A stretch of DNA of 44,573 bases from a virus. This document shows, one piece after another, positions 11,893 through 44,573 of this stretch (within the stretch, counting starts at the first letter, position 1; every line of letters begins with the position of its first letter). The translations under genes were made by a program, and so were the position numbers. The notes beneath the pieces are model-generated. The model worked only from the letters and a program-made list of their open reading frames with translations. It was not told where the DNA came from and did no database searches. Location of the stretch: the IMG/VR virus record IMGVR_UViG_3300022542_001185, positions 1 to 44,573 of that record. The stretch is one strand, 5' to 3'.

Positions 11893-12057
11893 CTATAGTT
11901 TTTTCTTCTGATCTATTTTTTCTATATCACATATATTTCTTACAATCTTTGTTATTGCTCCCTGATGTTTTGTAATTGATATATTCAAATGCCCGTATTC
12001 TAATGTCGGTTCTATCTCAGATATCCATTCAATAAGTTCGGCTATGTTTTCGTTCAT
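11893..12057 (-). CDS. Small protein after terminase nuclease, 54 aa
   Basis: ATG at 12057 overlaps the nuclease stop as ATGA. The protein starts MNENIAELIEWISEIE and has a centre YGHLNISITKHQGAITKIVR resembling the short DUF2292-type pattern (Y-G-x-V-x-I-x-x-x-x-G-x-I). It ends with a lysine-rich tail. Function unknown. It is the last gene before the promoter/terminator unit. Confidence 0.6.
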   Translation of the reverse strand: MNENIAELIEWISEIEPTLEYGHLNISITKHQGAITKIVRNICDIEKIDQKKKL

Positions 12058-12713
12058 CTATTTTCATTCCTATTAACCACACTTGAAATTCCGTGTGTTT
12101 TATCCATCCACCAGACACCTAAACCAATAGCTAAAACCAGATCATCATGAATTTTTTCCAGCCAGGCCTCATAGCTATCGTGACCGGTTTTTTGATCTAT
12201 TTTCATTTTAAATCCCTGAAGTTCTTCTACGAAAGTTTCTATTATCGGCATTTTTTCAGGAGGAGGCATCTTGAATCTTCCTGACTGCCATGCAGCTACA
12301 AGGGCGGTTACTATATCCCTCTTTGGAACATTGTATCCGTGTTTTGTTGAATTTGCAGAATTCCCGCTTGTTATACTTATGCCTATCGGAGCAAGATCAT
12401 ATAAATACATTATCTGCATTATAGGTATCCCTATTCCGGTTCTGTCTACTACAAGCTGAATATCTCCTACATATCTGGGATTTTCAACTGTAGCTTTTAT
12501 CATTTCGCAAATTTTAGGATATGTAGTTTTTAATGGTATCCGTGTTAAATATTTAAGATGTAATTCCGATACCACCATTATTTTTTCGCTTCTTATCGGC
12601 CTTGAATTTACTGTAGGAATATTAGGATCTCTTATTTTTTCAATCCTTTCAAGAATTCCCATTGCTGCATAATCATTTTCCGATCCAAGATCCATACAGC
12701 AACAATATCTCAT
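12054..12713 (-). CDS. terL: Terminase large subunit, nuclease half (split), 219 aa
   Basis: The protein is the RNase-H-like nuclease domain of a large terminase without the ATPase. Expected acidic residues are visible: D8 in CMDLGSENDYAAMGI, D90 in QLVVDRTGIG, and D190/D191 in IHDDLVLAIG. It starts exactly where the nuclease domain normally begins, so no part of the enzyme is missing. ATG overlaps the stop of the preceding 58-aa gene (ATGA). The ATPase half is encoded 0.5 kb upstream at 13189-14112. The two polypeptides presumably associate to cut concatemeric DNA during packaging. Confidence 0.85.
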   Translation of the reverse strand: MRYCCCMDLGSENDYAAMGILERIEKIRDPNIPTVNSRPIRSEKIMVVSELHLKYLTRIPLKTTYPKICEMIKATVENPRYVGDIQLVVDRTGIGIPIMQIMYLYDLAPIGISITSGNSANSTKHGYNVPKRDIVTALVAAWQSGRFKMPPPEKMPIIETFVEELQGFKMKIDQKTGHDSYEAWLEKIHDDLVLAIGLGVWWMDKTHGISSVVNRNENR

Positions 12714-12886
12714 ATTTCACCTTCTTTATTTTTGGTAACAGGTTCTCTGCCTTCCATAGCTGCAATAGCTATCTCCAGCCCATCATAAATTCCCATCATA
12801 TAATCGCTATGATCCCAGTTGACATCCTGTCCGTGAATATCTCTCAGATTCTTTATCCCATCAATCCTTTCCACTAGTGTTGTCAT
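12710..12886 (-). CDS. Small phage protein between terminase halves, 58 aa
   Basis: The sequence starts MTTLVERIDGIKNLRDI and has the core HSDYMMGIYDGLEIAIAAMEGREP. Helical phage proteins with a similar Y-M-x-G-x-Y-x-G-L-E-x-A-x-A-x-x-E-x-R-E-P core are common, but I know no function for them. The gene begins immediately after the 101-aa stop (TAA then ATG) and its TGA overlaps the nuclease start, coupling it to both. Confidence 0.65.
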   Translation of the reverse strand: MTTLVERIDGIKNLRDIHGQDVNWDHSDYMMGIYDGLEIAIAAMEGREPVTKNKEGEI

Positions 12887-13192
12887 TTATTCTGTCACCT
12901 CTTCATATGTCTTTTTAAATATATCATGGTCACATGAGTAATATTCACCTTCTACTCCACGTATAACCATATTTCCCCATTTAGCTAAATGGTCACCTTC
13001 AAGAACTTGAAGTATTATTCCATCTTTCTCCAGTTCTTTATCTACAAACTCATACCATTTATCTTGTCCTATTTGAGAAGTCTGATTAGTATATTCCCCT
13101 ATAAATAAATAACACTCCTGAAAAGACACTCTATTCCTTTCTAATAATACAGCTTCAATAATTACAGGCTTCTTTCTATATTTCATTTTCAT
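12887..13192 (-). CDS. Phage protein of the 'MKYRKKPV' type, 101 aa
   Basis: It starts KMKYRKKPVIIEAV and ends with GDHLAKWGNMVIRGVEGEYY, then HDIFKKTYEEV. This is a widespread small phage family (PGDYG-like ending G-x-Y/E-x-Y..C...F..TYE) of unknown function. ATG overlaps the stop of the terminase ATPase gene (ATGA). Its position inside a split terminase gene is unusual. Confidence 0.7.
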   Translation of the reverse strand: MKMKYRKKPVIIEAVLLERNRVSFQECYLFIGEYTNQTSQIGQDKWYEFVDKELEKDGIILQVLEGDHLAKWGNMVIRGVEGEYYSCDHDIFKKTYEEVTE

Positions 13193-14112
13193 TCTCCCGT
13201 AAAGACAATGTCCAGGAAATTGTCTACTTTTATATTTTCTGAATACATCGTATTTTCAATACCTTCTACCTTAATTGAATCATCATATGCACTTTCAATC
13301 AGATCAAGATCAAAGACACTCTCCATACCTTCCAGAAACTCACATCCATATTCTCTTCTAAACCATATAGGTCCTATCTCACCTAATTCTTCATAAAGGA
13401 ATTCAAGGGAGTGTCTTGGGGAATAAAAAGCATCTATTCCTTTTTTGACATATTCAGCTTTAAATTTCTCCTCTTTAGGTCTTTCGACTATCTTCCCGTC
13501 AATCAATTCATATCTTGGAACAACCAAAATCTTTTTCCATGCAGGATTTTTTGTCCAGGCTTTAAAGAAAAATCCAGATTTAGTCCATGGGGTACTTAAT
13601 ATAATAATAGTGGAATTAGGGTTCCCTGTACGCATAGGCCTTAAAGCTTTATATGTAGCATCAAGAACTCTCGAAGCTTCATCTATAATTATCAGGTCCG
13701 GGTCTGAATAACTTCTTACACTTTTCTCTGTTCCTGGAAGAACAATAACACGGCTTCCGTTTATGAATCTTTTCTCAAAGGTTGAATCCCCGGGCATTTC
13801 AATAAGCTCCGGGTCCAATTGAATAAAATCTGAAACTTTCTGCATCGTCTGTTTGGCCTGATCTTTACTGGAGGCCACTATGAGCACAAGAGCATTTCTT
13901 TTATGTTTTGCTGTATGCAGGCCTCGGCCAGCAACTATTGTTGACTTCCCACTCTGCCTCGCACACATGAGTATGATATTTCTAGGGACTGGATCAAGCG
14001 CCATTTTCTGCCACTCGAATGTCTGGTTCCAGATCCTGTCAATATAACTCACTGGATCAATCATATCAGAAAATATTCTTCTGACATGATCCTCCATTTT
14101 ATATTTAGTCAT
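13189..14112 (-). CDS. terL: Terminase large subunit, ATPase half (split), 307 aa
   Basis: This is the packaging motor domain. An adenine-binding WQ lies at residues 34-35, Walker A ARQSGKST at 51-58, Walker B LIIIDEASRV with D144-E145, and coupling motif ILSTPW at 171-176. The C-terminal FRREYGCEFLE..VFDLDLIESAY is the normal linker before the nuclease domain. Translation then stops after a short non-conserved tail and the nuclease is encoded separately. It powers DNA translocation at the portal. Downstream genes are coupled through ATGA overlap. A weak GGGATATT precedes the ATG. Confidence 0.9.
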   Translation of the reverse strand: MTKYKMEDHVRRIFSDMIDPVSYIDRIWNQTFEWQKMALDPVPRNIILMCARQSGKSTIVAGRGLHTAKHKRNALVLIVASSKDQAKQTMQKVSDFIQLDPELIEMPGDSTFEKRFINGSRVIVLPGTEKSVRSYSDPDLIIIDEASRVLDATYKALRPMRTGNPNSTIIILSTPWTKSGFFFKAWTKNPAWKKILVVPRYELIDGKIVERPKEEKFKAEYVKKGIDAFYSPRHSLEFLYEELGEIGPIWFRREYGCEFLEGMESVFDLDLIESAYDDSIKVEGIENTMYSENIKVDNFLDIVFTGE

Positions 14113-33668: not shown

Positions 33669-34145
33669 TTATCTGCCGAATATTAAAATCAGTACAAGAA
33701 TCAGTATTGTGGCTGTTTCTCCTATAATTATTCCGTTACGGATTTTCTGCCCTTTCAATATAGAATTGTAGCTCTGAATTAAGTTCTCCAAGTCCATCTG
33801 CAACTTTCTGAATTCCCTGTCTGCTATCGCTGATTCTTCCAGATAAAGATCCCAGTCCAGTTTCAATACTTTCGCTGATGTCAATAATTTCAGGTGTTTC
33901 TGTTCCCAGTTCAACAATTTCTGATTCAAGATCACTGACTCTTCCAGCAATTCTGATACGGTCTGAGTTGAGGCTTTCAATTGTAGCTGAATAACTTCTA
34001 ATTGATCCCTGTAATTCTGCGTTCTCTCGCTCCAAGCCTTTAGTTGTTCCACGGGAATAGGCACATCCTGTGATAAACCCTGAACCGAAAATGAGAACAG
34101 CAATAACACCGACAATAATATACTTAAATACTTTCTGCATTTCAT
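33669..34145 (-). CDS. Overlapping frame: possible spanin partner, 158 aa, C-terminal membrane span
   Basis: This frame starts 5 bases before the lipoprotein frame and runs 67 bases past its stop. It encodes a signal-peptide-like N-terminus (KYLSILLSVLLLFSFSVQG), coiled-coil helices and a C-terminal membrane span (ATILILVLILIFGR, last ~20 residues) ending just before the terminator. Many Leu/Gln codons in the overlapped part look like a shadow of the other frame, but the unshared 3' end has normal codon use. It may be a true second gene, or the C-terminus of a frameshifted lipoprotein spanin. Confidence 0.45.
   Translation of the reverse strand: MKCRKYLSILLSVLLLFSFSVQGLSQDVPIPVEQLKAWSERTQNYRDQLEVIQLQLKASTQTVSELLEESVILNQKLLNWEQKHLKLLTSAKVLKLDWDLYLEESAIADREFRKLQMDLENLIQSYNSILKGQKIRNGIIIGETATILILVLILIFGR
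33736..34140 (-). CDS. Spanin-like lipoprotein with coiled coil, 134 aa
   Basis: The N-terminus has a lipoprotein signal: MQKVFKYIIVGVIAVLIFGS, then GFITGC with lipobox I-T-G-C26. The mature part is coiled coil (ENAELQGSIRSYSATIESLN, later DSRQGIQKVADGLGELNSEL) without further membrane span. Position next to the holin and lysin, plus a second overlapping frame, fits outer-membrane spanin genes (Rz1 class) that fuse inner and outer membranes at lysis. Codon use is normal, so this is the primary frame. AAGGAG lies 9 bases before the ATG. Confidence 0.6.
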   Translation of the reverse strand: MQKVFKYIIVGVIAVLIFGSGFITGCAYSRGTTKGLERENAELQGSIRSYSATIESLNSDRIRIAGRVSDLESEIVELGTETPEIIDISESIETGLGSLSGRISDSRQGIQKVADGLGELNSELQFYIERAENP

Positions 34146-34345
34146 TCTTCTCCTTCCTTTCTTTTCTTTAATGAACTAATTGTCATATAAGAAACTATAA
34201 TTCCACCAATAATTCCTATAGCAACCCAAACATCACTATTATTTGCAGCTACACCATAAATTGACATTCCTGTAACATATAATATTGCCCATAAAACTAT
34301 CCACCATCTTCTTGATCCCATTTTCTTTTTCATTTTTTCTGTCAT
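34142..34345 (-). CDS. Holin-like protein, 67 aa, two membrane spans
   Basis: A charged start (TEKMKKKMGSRR) precedes two hydrophobic spans, WWIVLWAILYVTGMSIYGV (residues ~13-31) and VWVAIGIIGGIIVSYMTI (~39-56), and a lysine/glutamate tail, the layout of class II holins. It lies between the endopeptidase and spanin genes with ATGA overlaps at both ends. It would form lesions in the cytoplasmic membrane to release the lysin. Assignment is by topology and context. Confidence 0.65.
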   Translation of the reverse strand: MTEKMKKKMGSRRWWIVLWAILYVTGMSIYGVAANNSDVWVAIGIIGGIIVSYMTISSLKKRKEGEE

Positions 34346-34815
34346 AATGTTTCATATCCTATTAAAACACAGAAGCCGTAACCTATTTGATCAAATCCTA
34401 CAAAAAGAATTTCCACATTTTTAACCTTTTTTCTATTAAAATATATCTTAAAATGATCTTTTGATCTATGTCTATCTTTTGGAACCAGATCATAAGCTGG
34501 ATGATTCTTACCATAAATCTTTTTATATTCTTTACACATATATTGAGTTGTTATTACCAATTTGAATTTAAATAGATCCTCATCTTTAAAATAATCTAAT
34601 TGTGTTTTACAGGGTTTATATCTTTTAAGAATTCCAATTTCTCTCAGTCGGATAATTTTTCTGACAAATCCATAAATCAGATCAATATGAAGATGATTAA
34701 ATTTTGATTGACCTGAAGTTCCCATTATTCCAATAAAATCACCAAACTTTAATGAATCTCCAACTTTAAGATGAGACATAGATTCAAGATGAGCATATCT
34801 TACTGTATATTTCAC
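34342..34815 (-). CDS. Circularly permuted M23-type endopeptidase (lysin), 157 aa
   Basis: All M23/LytM zinc and catalytic elements are present but in permuted order. The N-terminal half holds TVRYAHLESM (H9), KVGDSLKFGDFIGIMGTSGQ and NHLHIDL (H41, H43), which normally ends the fold. The C-terminal half holds NHPAYDLV (H105, D109) and FDQIGYGFCVLIGYE, which normally begins it. A basic linker (residues ~52-85) joins the two. It should cleave peptidoglycan cross-bridges. GTG at 34815 overlaps the previous stop as GTGA. Located beside holin and spanin genes. Confidence 0.75.
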   Translation of the reverse strand: MKYTVRYAHLESMSHLKVGDSLKFGDFIGIMGTSGQSKFNHLHIDLIYGFVRKIIRLREIGILKRYKPCKTQLDYFKDEDLFKFKLVITTQYMCKEYKKIYGKNHPAYDLVPKDRHRSKDHFKIYFNRKKVKNVEILFVGFDQIGYGFCVLIGYETL

Positions 34816-42500: not shown

Positions 42501-44573
42501 AAATTCTTCATAAGTATCAAAGCCTTGAGCCATTTCTGTAAGCCAGTCAAAATCAGAAAGCATTTCAGCATTATCCTTTCTTCTCTCTATTTCATCGACC
42601 GCCCATTTTTCATCAGGAAATTGCTTAAGTATTTTTATAGGAACATCATATCCTTTATTTACAGCTTCTTTTATCTTTTTAACATATTCATCTTTATCCG
42701 GCTGGAAGAGAGCGTTGCGATTTATTGAATTACCGGCATAAAATCTGTCTATCTGGGCTTTCACTTTTGTAAATCCGGCAGAAGAAATAAGATAATCCTT
42801 TCGTGTACCATCGGCCAATTCTATCTGAACCTCTCCACGGTCAACTATTTTCCTGATTTGTTTATATTGTTCTGGAGTCGGTAATGCCCCTAGATCAGCA
42901 AATCCATTTCTGGCATCCACACGGGCTCCACCCATATCAAGAAATACTTCTATTGCTGTATGTATTTCTGAATGAAATACGAATCTTCTTCCTGCCAGAT
43001 AATCTCTGCCAGTTGCCACATAGCGATCTCCCTCTTTAATATAACCCTCTGAACCCTTTCTTCCGGTAAAGTCCAGCATACGACCATCAGGAAGCACATA
43101 ACCGGCTTCATTTATGTCTTCAGTTAAGCCAAAGTCTTCAATTGACTGATTAAGATCCTTCTCCGGCATTGAATCAAATTTCTTATCTGTCTGAAAAAGT
43201 TTACCTTCGGCATTCTCTCTTGTAATCTCAACTGTTGTTCCATCATTTAAATCTTTCAGCCTTTCTTCCGATAAAAGGCCATCGAACAGCATTTTCATTT
43301 CTTTTGTGATATGTGGTGATTCCCGGAAAGAAATATAGATTTTTCTCATGTATTCGGCAAATTTCTGGAAAATGGATTTCATTCCTTCCTGATCCGTCTT
43401 CCCTTCCCATATGTAATTCTCAAAACCTTCAGCAAAAACTTCTTCCATAGAATTAGTCCATTCTCCGGTTTCTAATAATTCTATTTCTTTTTTTACTTTG
43501 GTTATACCTAAACGATCTTCTAACAGTTCGGCCTGTGCTAAATTTGAAATCAGTTGTTTTCTTGCTTCTTTTGTAGCCCATCCTGAAGCTACATTTAATT
43601 CCTGTTCAGTTAATTCTCTTCTGAAAATGTGAGCTAATTCATGAACCCATGAAGAGAAATCAGAAGTGTCTTTTACAAAAAGCATTGCCCTGCCTTCGTC
43701 TGCAAAGTCAACACCCGCCTTATGCTTATTTCCCAGAACATCTATACTATCCCCAGGTTTTGCAAAAATATCTTCTACAAAGGTATCTTTAATATATTTT
43801 ACCGGTGAAACATCAAGTCTATTTGCTCTCAGTGATACGAGCTCCACAGCCCCTTCGATCTCCTGCGGTGTCATTACCGGAAAATTCTCTTTTAATTTTC
43901 TGCTAAATTCTTTACCCTGTTTAGTCTTAATAAAATCACCCTTTATTTTTTCTATAGGGTTGGCATCTCTAAATTCCTGAGAATCCATTTCAAATTCCGG
44001 TTTAGGATCTGTTTTCAGTAAAGTTGATTTCTCTTCCTGAATTCTTTCTATGGAAGTTATGCCGGTATCAAGATCTATCTGGGCAAATTCAAGATCTTCC
44101 TTGAGATCATCTAATCTCTCTAATAGTTCAAGCTTCTCTTCGTTATCTTCTGTCGATTCAATGGCCGATTGAATAGTCTGTATTTGAGAATCAACATCCT
44201 CAATGAAAGCTTCAGATGTTTCTATTTCTGTCTGAAGATCATCAATTATCTTATTATATTCTTTTATTACCGGATCTCTATCTTGCAGAGTTCTGCCTAA
44301 AAGATCTTCAGGAGAAATCTCTGTAGGTTCCACAATTATCTTGTCAGGGAATTTCTCTCTTATGGCATCCATCATATCATCTGCCACCTCTATATCAATC
44401 CCTTCTTCCAGATTTATTTCATCTATTAAAATATTGTCTTCTTCATCAAAGGTATAATCTATATTCCCCAGAGAAGATCCATCTTCTGCCCGAGCTTTAA
44501 CTGCTTCTTCACTCACGGTAAATACCGGTTTCTTAAGTTCTCTGGAATCTTCTTCTCTTGACCATACTTCTAC
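39525..44573 (-). CDS. Giant polyvalent/ejected virion protein, C-terminal part (metalloprotease domain)
   Basis: This is the continuation of the gene that starts at 1502; together ~2141 residues. In full-length numbering, ~558-650 is a coiled coil. The motif VHELAHIFRR with HExxH at 770-774 and a downstream EEVFAEGF (candidate third ligand E841) form a zincin protease. Residues ~948-1063 (VLPDGRMLDFTG, later LPTPEQYKQIRKIV) resemble an LPD-type polyvalent-associated domain. A long helical C-terminus holds MGLTISALAMWMI. Such proteins enter the cell with phage DNA. The GTG at 44516 is internal. Confidence 0.8.
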   Translation of the reverse strand, partial: VEVWSREEDSRELKKPVFTVSEEAVKARAEDGSSLGNIDYTFDEEDNILIDEINLEEGIDIEVADDMMDAIREKFPDKIIVEPTEISPEDLLGRTLQDRDPVIKEYNKIIDDLQTEIETSEAFIEDVDSQIQTIQSAIESTEDNEEKLELLERLDDLKEDLEFAQIDLDTGITSIERIQEEKSTLLKTDPKPEFEMDSQEFRDANPIEKIKGDFIKTKQGKEFSRKLKENFPVMTPQEIEGAVELVSLRANRLDVSPVKYIKDTFVEDIFAKPGDSIDVLGNKHKAGVDFADEGRAMLFVKDTSDFSSWVHELAHIFRRELTEQELNVASGWATKEARKQLISNLAQAELLEDRLGITKVKKEIELLETGEWTNSMEEVFAEGFENYIWEGKTDQEGMKSIFQKFAEYMRKIYISFRESPHITKEMKMLFDGLLSEERLKDLNDGTTVEITRENAEGKLFQTDKKFDSMPEKDLNQSIEDFGLTEDINEAGYVLPDGRMLDFTGRKGSEGYIKEGDRYVATGRDYLAGRRFVFHSEIHTAIEVFLDMGGARVDARNGFADLGALPTPEQYKQIRKIVDRGEVQIELADGTRKDYLISSAGFTKVKAQIDRFYAGNSINRNALFQPDKDEYVKKIKEAVNKGYDVPIKILKQFPDEKWAVDEIERRKDNAEMLSDFDWLTEMAQGFDTYEEFKDEAVFGTQDIGDKWLENFYEIARQQISTIDINEGNKRWIKKLTDRYIIDSIIAMSKNVKKARDAGVPVSLVAQAERYKTKKTINDSQIVLIRKIYKNNPAKMREFVGEFGGDKTELKKLQKEREFAREFEIVDEMKRPEPFAKNRYKILRELEDVRLQGKVRDGSLTLEEIDIILAESEKVIRDDNDQIKKLTKEFARTRSEAVKAAIKKTKDERNKHYKDRDSKRKLKQHIRDLGKYISRPIPTTVAIEQRLIIESLRKTVDPHFRTDITIVKREIDKVIAGDLTAKELGITQKKLESLNKKSLGEISVEELENMKSQIKGLINIGKAIKAARKEAKETKDLSLVEAFNNAMTKGKAIPDQPPFVSEKRNLKDIPEEFYLGNMRLARVADMMDGGIGIKGGDFKGPIHDFFVNDFDDATNAELEEFFKRRDAWEAKYNELGITAKELSKVYEISGLKITAAEIAGVYAFYRNEKARGHVEFGNGITENMRNEMVQAIPEKILRMADYMIEDFSGDNFERLRDARRVDENRETKREDNYMPIHTLSMFSTGVEAELSNRDFKRKTLKKKFLLERKNISEESHKEIGGIELDIFSTWEADVRDHEHYIAHADIISRANRILSNSDFKAATRATGFKLHANELQQYVNRVANPSINKSHTVWNRAVRHLRRSSSIAYLSFNVVTMMKQAPSIALFMGYSSPADLLSGMYQTITAFEKTREIMERLAPQMRERSVERYIDELKKAANKDFLKIVEKVGLAGMKGIIKTDQLVVTAGWKAVYDKNRRSMSKEDAARIATRAVLNTQPASSAKDVARIYAEDNFLSIFLQFTNQLNQIFNIATYDAPQALLHHHFGKMSGLYMGLTISALAMWMIANRRLPRDDEDFREVFTDQVVNSLPVFGRVASSEMDGFNYTLPILTPVTKGIRGLSLAGKALFGEELSEKELERMIFSMYEAVGTGVGIPYIGPKRIYEGIKNKKPLQYIMFGGEIDDTE
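44449..44573. repeat. Terminal direct repeat, right copy
   Basis: Exact copy of bases 1-125. Removing one copy gives a 44448-bp circle with an intact reading frame across the join. Confidence 0.95.

Follow-up and report, generated by a model that had tools for sequence, protein, structure and literature searches.

Enzymes of the M23 (LytM/lysostaphin) family (PF01551), such as LytM, EnpA, ShyA and TagE, carry an Hx3D motif first and an HxH motif later, and the InterPro M23 domain spans the stretch from one to the other (PMC9662197). The second histidine of HxH is a zinc ligand and the first a water-activating residue, while LytM H260 may assist water activation (PMC9662197). In EnpA, Arg21 stands eight residues ahead of His29 (PMC8269130). 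Phages also encode M23 hydrolases, endolysins and tail-associated domains alike (an example is Microbacterium phage Evcara gene 12), and these are in normal order.

A natural permutation of a peptidoglycan-hydrolase fold, with catalytic residues kept in swapped order, has been reported for the NlpC/P60 hydrolases (YaeF, LRAT-like; PMC6403190), and the permuted endopeptidases of the CIRPIN preprint refer to the same family (PMC12667903). The NlpC/P60 enzymes are the nearest analogue of the phage protein described below, but they are cysteine peptidases with a papain-like fold, unrelated to M23. The phage protein shares Hx3D, HxH and a third histidine with the M23 enzymes, and both its halves are homologous to M23 at the family level. 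It differs from them in its swapped halves, in its new termini, which fall between the GYG and YAHL strands, and in a new linker, itself conserved. No permuted M23 enzyme is described in the accessible parts of PMC9662197, PMC6403190, PMC12419801, PMC4594094, PMC8269130, PMC12667903 and PMC3320104, and neither "permut" nor "circular" occurs in the accessible text of the M23 review among them (PMC9662197). None was found in the literature searched, most subscription journals and bioRxiv aside, which leaves uncontradicted the statement of an earlier note on this DNA that a permuted phage M23 lysin is not known to have been described.

A phage gene with the M23 motifs in swapped order

The window, that is, the whole stretch of viral DNA analysed (44,573 nucleotides; IMG/VR record IMGVR_UViG_3300022542_001185), contains at 34342..34815 on the minus strand a 157-residue ORF predicted to encode a circularly permuted M23-type endopeptidase. 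The GTG start overlaps the preceding ORF's stop codon, and the TGA stop overlaps the ATG of the ORF that follows. The protein begins directly with an M23-half domain, and an export signal is absent as judged by eye. Residues 2-46 (34678..34812, minus strand), covering positions 44-87 of the 96 positions of the Pfam profile and matching LytM in the predicted model, correspond to what is normally the second half of the M23 domain (YAHL strand, GD..G..GTSG and HLH). Residues 47-84 (34564..34677, minus strand) form a new linker from the old C-terminus to the old N-terminus, in which Q72, F76 and L81 are invariant in 12 of 12 family proteins. Residues 85-157 (34345..34563, minus strand) correspond, by hhalign and by a match of the model to EnpA, to the normal first half (ITT strand, Hx3D and GYG strand), which is now C-terminal and ends the window protein with GYGFCVLIGYE.

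The motif set of PF01551, namely Hx3D, HxH and a third histidine about 30 residues before HxH (PMC9662197), is present as H105/D109, H41/H43 and H9, all encoded on the minus strand. H9, in YAHL (34789..34791), is the expected equivalent of LytM H260 and occurs in all 11 family proteins that have the region. H41 and H43 of the HLH motif (34687..34695), with roles assigned, as for H9, through PMC9662197, and H105 and D109 of HPAYD (34489..34503), predicted to bind zinc, are invariant in 12/12. Equally invariant is Y97 (34525..34527), which lies eight residues before the Hx3D histidine, the spacing known from EnpA (PMC8269130), and is a candidate counterpart of LytM Tyr204 and EnpA Arg21. What departs from the PF01551 definition is the order: HxH precedes Hx3D in all 11 full-length family proteins, the window protein included. 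The earlier note had placed these histidines, the aspartate and the GYGFCVLIGYE end at the same positions, as the ORF translation confirms, and its claim that all zinc and catalytic residues are retained agrees with their conservation across the family. Its reading of the gene as a circular permutation is supported by the family profile, by homologues of the same order and by the predicted fold. We consider it very likely that the gene encodes an M23 zinc endopeptidase that has been circularly permuted in nature, most likely a monomer with the normal M23 fold and most likely a phage endolysin.

The window ends in an exact 125-bp terminal direct repeat (1-125 and 44449-44573), and the contig probably represents a whole genome, either circular or terminally redundant. 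This repeat, together with the break of a metagenome-assembled genome (MAG) contig of the same phage within the permuted gene, could point to an assembly or circular-contig artefact as the source of the swapped order. The gene is internal to the window, however, and the artefact is refuted because the same order recurs in contigs from other samples and metagenomes, in proteins 36-55% identical to that of the window, which leaves this explanation with practically no probability.

Elsewhere in the window, the terminase large subunit looks split (12054-14112, minus strand), with an ATPase part at 13189-14112 separated by a 101-aa ORF from a 219-aa ORF (12054-12713) that is possibly the nuclease part; neither the 219-aa nor the 101-aa ORF had a Pfam match. 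Rfam gave no match within the window. The end of MAG contig SOIB01000205.1 (L065) matches the window at 96.5% identity over 1845 bases, compared with 99.97% at the contig start, which suggests a strain mixture.

The swapped order is shared by a family of phage proteins

Scans of viral contigs and genome contigs uncovered at least ten further distinct full-length proteins with the swapped order (L001, L002, L003, L005, L006, L007, L014, L066, L067 and L069), 36-55% identical to the window protein; a search for same-order homologues was among the checks proposed in the earlier note. Identical or near-identical copies (L008, L013 and L070) were each counted once with their set. A damaged copy, L012, is counted beside the full-length members; it was excluded from rotation scoring and from the tree, and kept in the conservation count, the PDB profile comparisons and the models. 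Its damaged N-terminal region (L012:2985-3060) reflects either real decay or an assembly error. The same swapped order in distantly related phages argues that the rearrangement is real and inherited. The family is surely under-counted, because the viral scans were capped, used few peptide patterns each, and were still turning up new members (L066, L067 and L069) in the final two rounds.

Two members lie in contigs named after bacterial candidate phyla: L013, from the same phage as the window (99.97% identity over 3515 bases), in one named Candidatus Stahlbacteria, and L014 in one named Candidatus Cloacimonadota. Searches of the phyla of the two member-bearing MAGs returned 1 of 124 genomes at E 1e-15 and 1 of 147 at E 1e-12, in each case the MAG itself. 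Genomes of three other phyla, in sets that hold no positive control, gave 0/398, 0/395 and 0/296 at E 1e-15. With the rotated profile (see below), 86 of 121 genomes from the phylum to which the L014 MAG belongs, that MAG included, reached E 1e-12; these matches lie mostly at about 52-124, spanning the join, and thus reflect homology to ordinary M23s across the join and not extra permuted copies. A plasmid search with one query (L067) matched nine records, none with 80% coverage. The sole INPHARED record with a place covering at least 80% of a query, among five family queries, was Staphylococcus phage S-CoN_Ph25, which turned out to encode a normal-order M23.

Rotation restores a contiguous match to M23

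Against the Pfam Peptidase_M23 model, whose gathering score is 28.7 bits, the window protein in native order scored 31.8 bits, with the match confined to residues 2-46. In the native-order full-length family proteins, the model covered the second half only (from 43/45 to 87/90 of 96), at the protein N-terminus. Eight of the 11 full-length proteins were then rotated by a cut before residue 79 and scored again. Rotation raised the score in 8/8, by 4.3 to 11.0 bits (31.8 to 36.1, 35.1 to 42.9, 44.3 to 54.4, 51.0 to 60.0, 34.3 to 42.6, 32.6 to 39.4, 38.7 to 47.6 and 35.7 to 46.7), with all eight above the gathering score. Each rotated protein gave a single contiguous match starting at profile position 2 to 24, compared with 43 to 45 in native order.

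A profile of 21 normal-order M23 sequences was used as a yardstick. For 19 of these, the order is no evidence that Hx3D normally comes first, because the pattern by which they were selected demands Hx3D before HxH. The premise of the earlier note that Hx3D comes first and HxH last in normal M23s is instead borne out by PMC9662197 and by 17 non-family M23-like frames fetched around search matches (near-copies L018/L083 and L032/L034 included), 15 of which have Hx3D within 100 residues upstream of YAHL/HxH; the remaining two, L017 and L019, show no plain Hx3D pattern in that stretch. When compared with the yardstick by hhalign, the native family profile gave two matches in swapped order (2-51 to 72-120, and 128-148 to 47-67, or 129-149 to 47-67 in another comparison), whereas the rotated profile gave one match across the old termini (51-126 to 47-120) with a score of 143.3. 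Column-shuffled controls of the rotated profile averaged 124.0 (sd 1.3, maximum 130.9), and 0/200 reached 143.3. Rotation of the family profile also raised its scores against M23 entries of the PDB, from 36.9 to 46.0 bits for TagE, from 36.8 to 46.0 for ShyA and from 25.9 to 31.9 for LytM (2b0p). Furthermore, the alignment of rotated L002 and L003 with the normal M23 model starts ahead of Hx3D and runs past HxH, and both conserved Hx3D residues, H and D, fall on their equivalents.

For single proteins, 8 of the 11 rotated sequences exceeded all 500 of their shuffles and L067 was borderline (5/500 shuffles as good). The corresponding counts were 58/500 for L006 (27/300 in a first run) and 161/500 for the window protein (82/300 in the first run). 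The rotated M23 profile search proposed in the earlier note thus supports the permutation for the family, with scores rising in 8/8 and the family profile beating 200 shuffles, but not for the window protein alone. The window sequence is too diverged to beat its own shuffles, and the case therefore rests on the family and the predicted fold.

The window protein's C-terminal half adds no significant score and Pfam matches residues 2-46 only, as would be expected if an M23 C-terminal half had been joined to an unrelated domain in which Hx3D and GYG occur by coincidence. Against such a coincidence stand the results of the eight members and of the family profile against their shuffles, the placement of Hx3D on normal Hx3D in rotated L002 and L003, the invariance of H105 and D109, and the match of the model to the N-terminal half of EnpA. 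At the family level, a coincidental motif is close to refuted, and we regard it as highly improbable overall.

The predicted fold supports a permuted M23 domain

AlphaFold2, run on a 9-row alignment, produced a confident model of the window protein (pLDDT 94.5, pTM 0.89), with the linker at pLDDT about 90-97 per 10-residue block. The model of L003, also from a 9-row alignment, reached pLDDT 92.2 and pTM 0.88, with the linker at 81-97; three of the five L003 models were weaker (pLDDT 84.2, 71.0 and 70.1). Sequential Foldseek searches of the PDB and BFVD returned no match at E 0.001, which is expected of a permutant but is no proof of one.

Comparison with VIA-align 2 aligned the halves of the window model separately to M23 structures: residues 1-80 to LytM 252-316 (Z 3.0, rmsd 2.5, 65 residues), residues 1-75 and 1-85 to lysostaphin 321-384 and 321-392 (Z 2.4), and residues 71-157 to EnpA 2-71 (Z 2.5, rmsd 3.2, 70 residues). 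Residues 1-78 of the L003 model aligned to LytM 252-315 (Z 3.0, rmsd 2.1, 64 residues), and among the 50 rows listed for this model M23 matches were to its N-terminal half only. LytM H291 falls within the LytM-matched stretch. That stretch contains H260 and H293, and the EnpA-matched stretch contains H29 and D33 (PMC9662197 and PMC8269130 among the sources). That H9, H41, H43, H105 and D109 share one zinc site is only implied by the models. The rows compared were drawn from Foldseek's best 850 and 994 chains, so the absence of other M23s among them is uninformative.

The matches to M23 halves are in swapped order, but at Z 2.4-3.0 they are low, and unrelated proteins reach 4.0 and 4.4. Mitoribosome chains top the comparison for the window model (Z 4.0 and 3.9), and RNA polymerase beta' insert chains match the whole L003 model (Z up to 4.4); both were read as sharing a common beta arrangement and not as relatives. 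Given these equal or higher unrelated rows, the structural matches support the permutation rather than prove it. The structure prediction called for in the earlier note thus gave a confident fold, the two halves of which match LytM and EnpA weakly and in swapped order.

A linker as long as residues 47-84 could permit the halves to be swapped between protomers, in which case the enzyme would be an obligate dimer or regulated by assembly, with no complete site within one chain. The confident monomer models and the high pLDDT of the linker in the window protein, though less uniformly high in L003, argue against this arrangement, to which we give only a slim chance. In the favoured reading, a monomeric permutant, the conserved linker of about 40 residues would bridge what were once the N- and C-termini, the chain would now begin and end between the GYG and YAHL strands, and it would most likely take up the normal M23 fold. 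Zinc would be held by H43, H105 and D109, and water activated by H41 and H9.

Origin of the permuted proteins

In a tree of the shared core (43 rows, 11 permuted and 32 ordinary), the permuted proteins occupy one side of a branch with support 100/98, and many other forks are weak. This grouping is consistent with a single origin of the permuted M23 proteins. Two models, permutation by duplication and fission-fusion, are the usual accounts of how circular permutants arise (PMC3320104). No tandem or duplicated intermediate was seen in the window record and ten related records (a set to which L066, L067 and L069 do not belong), and neither model is favoured for the permuted M23. In SCOP, M23 is placed in the 'duplicated hybrid motif' fold; the internal pseudo-repeat of this fold would ease a swap of halves. 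The window record holds one family match and each of the ten related records one at best, that of L012 being damaged. Two MAG records also hold weak N-terminal matches to ordinary M23s, and the Stahlbacteria MAG contig has an additional partial family copy at its other end. In L074 (Microcoleus phage My-WqHQDG), two M23-type genes nearly adjoin, one of them annotated as LytH-like; this is the kind of duplication that could yield a permutation.

A wider proposal is that the family represents a single-origin, phage-only, never-described lineage of active permuted M23 endolysins, in which the linker and the freed termini altered substrate groove or specificity and made C-terminal fusions possible, as in the two members with a NAGPA-like domain. 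We put this forward tentatively, as a possibility that is more doubtful than probable.

Neighbouring genes suggest a role in lysis

Directly downstream of the hydrolase gene lies a small holin-like ORF with two hydrophobic stretches (34142..34345, minus strand), called by hydropathy and with no PHROG match. It is followed by two overlapping spanin-like ORFs on the same strand. The longer (33669..34145), also with no PHROG match, has an N-terminal signal-like stretch, a coiled coil by eye and a C-terminal hydrophobic stretch. The other (33736..34140) lies inside it in a different frame and has an N-terminal hydrophobic stretch and a coiled coil by eye; its counterpart in L021 matches an Rz-like spanin weakly (E 0.0065). 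The two overlap almost completely, with starts 5 bases apart.

An ORF with a hydrophobic stretch directly follows the hydrolase gene in the window and in 9 of 11 related contigs, among them that of damaged L012; in the other two, which carry the NAGPA fusions, such an ORF lies upstream instead. The overlapping two-frame spanin-like pair recurs in 5 of the 11 (L014, L021, L026, L066 and L028), with starts 2-4 bases apart in the first four and 49 bases apart in L028. PHROG matches were weak, to an Rz-like spanin (that of L021) and to a holin (E 0.02), at one locus each, and for the window's own neighbour ORFs the one match, at E 0.0042, was to an unrelated name. The holin-like and spanin-like assignments are based on hydropathy and position, and the hydropathy rule behind them also flags a stretch within the hydrolase itself. 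L025 and L067 have a lysis set unlike the window's, consisting of a small hydrophobic ORF, then one that by eye resembles a lipase, and then an ORF hydrophobic at both ends that is perhaps a single-gene spanin.

The holin-like and spanin-like neighbours suggest an endolysin role, and the term lysin is used here on the basis of this gene neighbourhood. As a holin-dependent endolysin, the permuted protein would stay in the cytoplasm until the holin-like membrane protein opens the inner membrane; the released enzyme would then cut a peptidoglycan peptide bond, and the overlapping spanin-like pair would handle the outer membrane.

Alternatively, the permuted fold might lack peptidase activity or serve another phage role, virion-associated or regulatory. 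Among the phage M23 relatives returned by tblastn, many carry a tail-protein annotation, degenerate LytM regulators exist (PMC8416486), and two members bear a C-terminal NAGPA-like domain (L001, E 6.4e-16; L069, E 0.025, below Pfam's cut-off). Loss of activity is at odds with the conservation of all zinc and catalytic residues, and a virion role with the setting of the gene, a small ORF followed by hydrophobic and spanin-like ORFs and not part of a tape measure. We therefore consider this alternative unlikely, and an endolysin the better reading.

Implications

M23 hydrolases are under study as antibacterials, and searches bound to the normal motif order see permutants as half-domains only. 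Structure comparison offers a clear case as well: the model of the window protein is confident (pLDDT 94.5), yet a sequential search left it unplaced. From a natural permutant one can read where the M23 fold accepts new termini, which makes linker and fusion sites testable.
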